Assembly: GCA_029204225.1 (NCBI GenBank)
Contig: CM055112.1
Coordinates: forward strand, 22,572,578 to 22,636,577
Source: Diphasiastrum complanatum
Taxonomy: Eukaryota; Streptophyta; Lycopodiopsida; Lycopodiales; Lycopodiaceae
Direction of reading: 5' to 3'
Length of the DNA stretch: 64,000 nt
A program made the position numbers and the translations under genes. Of the stretch, positions 17,170-63,552 are shown in pieces (the stretch's first letter is position 1; each line of letters starts with the position of its first letter). The notes beneath the pieces were generated by a model. The model did not search any database. It was not told the origin of the DNA and saw only the letters and a list, made by a program, of their open reading frames with translations.

Positions 17170-17216
17170 CTGTGACACAGTTTTGAATACCAAAGAGACC
17201 ATGAAAAAGAACACAC
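17170..17216 (-). CDS. SDR exon 7 (hydrophobic helix before the C-terminal exon)
   Basis: This exon lies between GCTGTAG and GTAACC, with 47 bases completing the codon begun in exon 6. It reads [16 protein letters not shown], matching the hydrophobic stretch ending K-[ST]-[VI]-[PS]-Q that precedes GAATTCYVA in the family. The next exon should begin with that motif. I did not find it in 1-17169, which is filled with LINE and LTR sequence, so intron 7 may exceed 17 kb or the exon may be lost. Confidence 0.85.

Positions 17217-63552: not shown

Follow-up and report, generated by a model that had tools for sequence, protein, structure and literature searches.

A probable SDR7C short-chain dehydrogenase gene with retrotransposon-enlarged introns

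Results

The window, i.e. the whole stretch of 64,000 nucleotides that was analysed, contains seven short exons on the minus strand. Exon 1 (63432..63552, 121 nt) runs from an ATG and encodes the N-terminus as far as the beginning of the cofactor motif. Most of this motif, TGGTSGIG, is found in exon 2 (49163..49394, 232 nt), followed by NNAG and ATNHV in exon 3 (48785..48864, 80 nt), HF and the region of the catalytic Ser in exon 4 (43745..43892, 148 nt), the catalytic Tyr and Lys (YGKSK) in exon 5 (25031..25109, 79 nt) and HPG in exon 6 (17378..17465, 88 nt). Exon 7 (17170..17216, 47 nt) terminates with FKTVSQ at a GT donor, and the proteins of its relatives run further. No 3' end of the frame was found in the window; the last bases of exon 7 are followed by a donor site and not by a stop codon.

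The exons are separated by intron 1 (49395..63431, 14,037 nt), intron 2 (48865..49162, 298 nt), intron 3 (43893..48784, 4,892 nt), intron 4 (25110..43744, 18,635 nt), intron 5 (17466..25030, 7,565 nt) and intron 6 (17217..17377, 161 nt), all on the minus strand, and the introns add up to 45,588 nt of the 46,383-base span. When the exons were excised and joined they gave 795 nt, i.e. 265 codons with no stop, and all six introns were GT-AG and consistent in phase, as the first-pass annotation of this DNA had described. The same annotation spoke of introns of 14-19 kb, which is correct for two of the six (14,037 and 18,635 nt) but not for the other four.

The spliced product matches the Pfam family adh_short (PF00106) over residues 36-246 with 102.2 bits (cut-off 26.6, E 3.3e-29), and it carries TGGTSGIG at residues 40-47 and NNAG at 119-122. 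The hallmarks of a short-chain dehydrogenase/reductase (SDR) that had been claimed for it, i.e. the cofactor motif, NNAG and the Asn-Ser-Tyr-Lys residues, are thus all present. Relatives were collected from bacterial and archaeal genomes, where at least 593 stretches matched the search pattern and 446 encoded a relative; the best 80 were kept and 79 of these gave usable proteins. N142, S175, Y201 and K205 of the product match at least 97% of the 79 bacterial relatives. Among these relatives 35 columns are conserved to at least 90%; the product retains 31 of them, including T40, G41, G45, G47, N120-G122, N142, S175, Y201, K205, P233 and G234, and the four departures are Q136, V144, F195 and H211. 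A collection of viral contigs gave 16 pattern-matching stretches, none of which was confirmed as a relative.

The closest curated families are bacterial oxidoreductases. Among the best 25 of 210 matching families in NCBIfam, a library built for bacterial and archaeal proteins, PRK06197 (NF004846) ranks first with 212.8 bits (E 6.4e-63), followed by PRK06196 (NF004845) with 194.1 bits (E 3.5e-57), PRK05854 with 151.5 bits, the light-dependent protochlorophyllide reductase family LPOR with 123.6 bits and the next family with 79.9 bits. All of these best 25 models score under their curated cut-offs. For PRK06197 and PRK06196 (cut-offs 268 and 414 bits) this is partly because the C-terminal tail is missing, and the last 67 of the 306 model positions of PRK06197 are uncovered. 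LPOR is a related branch of the SDR proteins (E 1.1e-35, with 6rnw and 6l1h among the best 60 of 347 matching PDB sequences), but an identity with LPOR itself was rejected, its score lying far below the cut-off of 331.35 bits. The top entries among those best 60 PDB matches are 3rd5 (MYPAA.01249.C), presumably a mycobacterial SDR, and protochlorophyllide reductases.

Identity to the best 80 bacterial and archaeal loci reaches 43-44%. Two plant sequences that were not derived from a database serve as leads: the first, which is TIC32-like, is 48% identical to the product over 260 residues, and the second is 44% identical over 277 residues. The product belongs to the retinol dehydrogenase/TIC32-like SDR proteins (SDR7C) and has intact catalytic residues; PRK06197 and SDR7C are here assumed to be one family. 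The earlier label "TIC32-like" is therefore apt at the family level, where PRK06197 is the best match and identity to the first plant sequence is 48%, but it does not extend to TIC32 itself; the gene may be an orthologue of Tic32 or of another SDR7C paralogue.

The choice of the SDR family depends on the gene model of the first-pass annotation, because the relatives were retrieved with its spliced product as the query. The placement of the exons by profile is, unlike the choice of family, independent of that model. The profile was made from the 79 bacterial relatives only and contains nothing from the window. Both strands were scanned with it as 3,183 segments between stops, each 12 residues or longer, and its top six segments were exons 2 (78.1 bits), 4 (31.9), 5 (28.1), 3 (23.5), 6 (18.7) and 1 (8.9). 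All six matches are on the minus strand, they are collinear and they tile profile positions 12-238, while the seventh-ranked segment reached only 4.4 bits. In 20 dinucleotide-preserving shuffles of the window the maximum was 6.9 bits, which is below the weakest exon match. Exon 1 alone is a weak match to the profile (E 0.12), but its position and order are correct, and with one of the two plant sequences phmmer finds it at E 2.2e-6. The first plant sequence has exons 1-6 as its six best segments in the window, all at E 1.2e-4 or better, and with the second the same six exons are again on top, exon 3 at E 0.17.

Unrelated open stretches joined by a reader in search of an SDR might in principle yield such a model, given that the exons are short and that exon 7 is without independent support. 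Such a chance assembly would hardly rank six of the seven exons, collinear and all on the minus strand, above every other of the 3,183 segments with a profile blind to the window and with no shuffle above 6.9 bits, and its probability is negligible. For exons 1-6 jointly chance assembly is refuted.

The splice junctions were assessed by comparing all combinations of GT donors and AG acceptors within 30 nt, which gave 4 to 12 pairs per junction. With the bacterial profile the splice pair of the gene model was optimal at five of the six junctions, and with a plant sequence not derived from a database it was optimal at all six. The junction between exons 4 and 5 has a tandem acceptor, GAGCAG (25110-25115, minus strand), so that one codon of exon 5 is ambiguous and may be gained or lost. 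The upstream acceptor, which makes the product one codon longer, scored 262.0 against 260.5 bits with the bacterial profile, a gain of 1.5 bits.

Exon 7 is the weak link of the model and had no independent match with the bacteria-only profile. It is supported by the splice phase, by a short family motif and by the end of the alignment with the first plant sequence. Below exon 6 there are 1,316 open AG-GT candidate exons of fitting phase; two of them bear the family tail motif, each with its end at 17170. The motif was written after exon 7 and the alignment of relatives had been seen, so this result supports exon 7 but does not prove it. If the donor of exon 7 were unused, ten further residues (VTFKELNTWF, read by eye) would follow before a stop. 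Such a short isoform is very unlikely; it would be an SDR with a complete active site but without a C-terminal tail, and the giant downstream intron would then decide, as a switch, whether the free or the tailed form of the enzyme is made.

The proteins of relatives extend 53-80 residues past the endpoint of exon 7 (30 tails measured). Their tails open with GAAT or similar directly after the last position of exon 7 and continue as GAAT...LW...S, and in the plant TIC32-like sequence the tail (GAATTCY) also starts exactly at the end of exon 7. In Tic32 the calmodulin-binding site lies near the C-terminus, i.e. in the part that is missing here.

The 17,169 bases below exon 7 were searched for a C-terminal exon with patterns, with the profile, with the tails of the two plant sequences and with a scan of open frames, and none turned up. 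Six motif patterns gave no match to the tail and the bacterial profile gave none below exon 7. With the plant tails the best tblastn match among those listed had E 0.28 (first sequence) and lies inside the Ty3-type element at 2930..9598, and the best match of the second tail, searched with phmmer only, had E 7; both were judged to be chance. The scan for open frames of 25 or more codons that follow an AG and have a GAAT-like start, from base 17109 downward, gave one candidate, at 7111. It was rejected, since it lies inside this same Ty3-type element and, judged by eye, does not resemble the tail of the family. A search of this kind, with a profile made without relatives of at least 42% identity, recovered 29 of 30 bacterial tails at E<0.01 and all 30 at E<1, a sensitivity that is valid for a tail in a single exon; a tail that is split into short exons or strongly diverged may be missed.

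The failure to find a tail in the window means that the last exon lies beyond its low end or has been lost. In the latter case the gene would be recently dead, with one or more 3' exons removed, for example by a retroelement insertion or a deletion below exon 7, and the exons seen here would be untouched relics. The missing C-terminal exon is in line with such a loss, as are a Ty3-type element that is young by its LTRs (99.1% identical) and reverse-transcriptase fragments in the region below exon 7. However, the 265 codons have no frame-breaking change, six introns are GT-AG and the active-site residues are intact, and another intron of more than 17 kb would be unremarkable beside intron 4 with its 18.6 kb. 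A dead gene is thus unlikely. Most likely the last exon is located beyond the low end of the window, and intron 7 would then be at least 17.1 kb.

The young element below exon 7 is a chromodomain Ty3-type element (2930..9598, minus strand) in the sense of the gene, with its frames in several pieces and a target duplication of TCCAC. Should the last exon follow outside the window, the element would sit within intron 7. Chromodomain Ty3-type elements occur in plants and also in fungi and animals, and the element therefore does not discriminate between a plant and another host. Two further stretches in this region are LINE-type by our reading: a reverse-transcriptase stretch at 9693-10838 (plus strand, antisense to the gene), and 12683-14413 (plus strand), which holds a reverse-transcriptase match at 13943-14413 and an endonuclease match below threshold.

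Intron 4 contains another Ty3-type LTR element (27112..32483, plus strand) that is antisense to the gene and has remnants of gag and protease. Its LTRs are 96% identical and it is flanked by a 5-bp target duplication, GGTAG. One insertion of 5.4 kb in this intron is thereby demonstrated by the LTR pair and the target duplication, and the remaining length of intron 4 would likewise have come from insertions. A putative second copy of exon 6 at 31911-32054 (minus strand) was rejected; it lies inside the LTR element and scores 4.4 bits (E 2.7), which is within the range of the shuffles (6.9 bits).

Intron 1 holds CT arrays, a LINE-type endonuclease remnant (57772-58629) and two LTR copies. The copies at 59129-59525 and at about 60630-61034 belong to the family of the intron 4 element, whose LTRs they match with about 95-97% and 77-80% identity, respectively. 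With the criterion that revealed the target duplications of the two Ty3-type elements, none was found at either copy. Intron 5 contains a retroelement RNase H remnant (20962-21333, minus strand). Ten additional open reading frames gave no Pfam match above the cut-off, and a search of Rfam at gathering thresholds gave no match.

The first-pass annotation had read the window as the introns of a host gene and not as repeat DNA. A host SDR gene with transposon-filled introns is well supported, but the contrast does not hold because the span is both.

Discussion

The window very probably represents the 5' and middle part of a nuclear SDR7C gene on the minus strand, with transcribed introns enlarged by retrotransposons and with its last exon past the low end. 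Intron size and repeat content point to a land plant with a large, repeat-rich genome as the host, most likely a fern or gymnosperm. The same gene model in a non-plant eukaryote with a large genome is unlikely in view of the 48% identity to a plant sequence, a comparison that covers two plant sequences and the PDB chains. Such a gene would encode a classical NAD(P)-dependent short-chain dehydrogenase. The unit of at least 46 kb would be transcribed as a whole and the enlarged introns would be excised by the ordinary spliceosome. Past an intron 7 of 17.1 kb or more, the last exon would supply the C-terminal tail, which is 53-80 residues long in relatives. The predicted substrate is a small carbonyl or alcohol, probably hydrophobic, which the enzyme would reduce or oxidise at its Asn-Ser-Tyr-Lys site. 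That the gene is live, as was proposed from the start, is plausible on the strength of its open frame and intact active site.

The family motifs of the product are those of the plant SDR7C proteins, which include pea Tic32 and for which Arabidopsis AT4G23420 is a representative in the excerpts of PMC3541173; the difference is that the C-terminal part was not found in this window. Excerpts of the same paper record SDR7C for green plants generally, with an average identity of 49.4%. Tic32 has been characterised as an NADPH-dependent dehydrogenase that belongs to the TIC redox regulon (excerpts of PMC5296341 and PMC10063809) that contacts Tic110 (PMC5296341). It is located in the inner membrane of the chloroplast envelope and binds calmodulin in competition with NADPH (excerpts of PMC10063809). 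The bacterial PRK06197 and PRK06196 oxidoreductases are the best curated matches, but they differ from the gene described here in that bacterial genes are without such introns.

Introns of more than 10 kb with retroelements are likewise found in the long-intron genes of ferns and gymnosperms, where they are common according to excerpts of PMC9477723 and PMC9364684. For the fern Ceratopteris, introns account for 30% of the genome, with a mean length of 5,555 bp and with 17,745 of them longer than 10 kb, and total gene length showed no correlation with expression (excerpts of PMC9477723). The 46 kb seen here is less than the length of the 706 Ceratopteris genes of more than 100 kb reported there. 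For gymnosperms, numerous introns of more than 20 kb are mentioned in excerpts of a review (PMC9364684). Swollen introns with transposons are not unusual for large plant genomes and SDR7C is already known in green plants. The locus is a worked example of how an apparent repeat desert in a large plant genome can be the interior of a gene, and it illustrates that a profile from distant bacterial relatives is sufficient to locate exons of 79-88 nt.

The two Ty3-type elements are related to each other. Their LTRs have the termini AGTTAT...(A/G)TAACT and not the usual TG...CA, while the target duplications are perfect. Other non-canonical LTR ends are the topic of PMC5659011.

CT dinucleotide arrays are found at 49433-49644, 55740-55836, 55037-55156 and 15891-15971 (93-100% matches), and they yield open frames of the SLSLSL/ERERER type. 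The longest of them, 212 nt at 100% (49433-49644), is separated from the start of exon 2 by no more than 38 nt, and on the gene strand it reads as a run of GA shortly before the acceptor.
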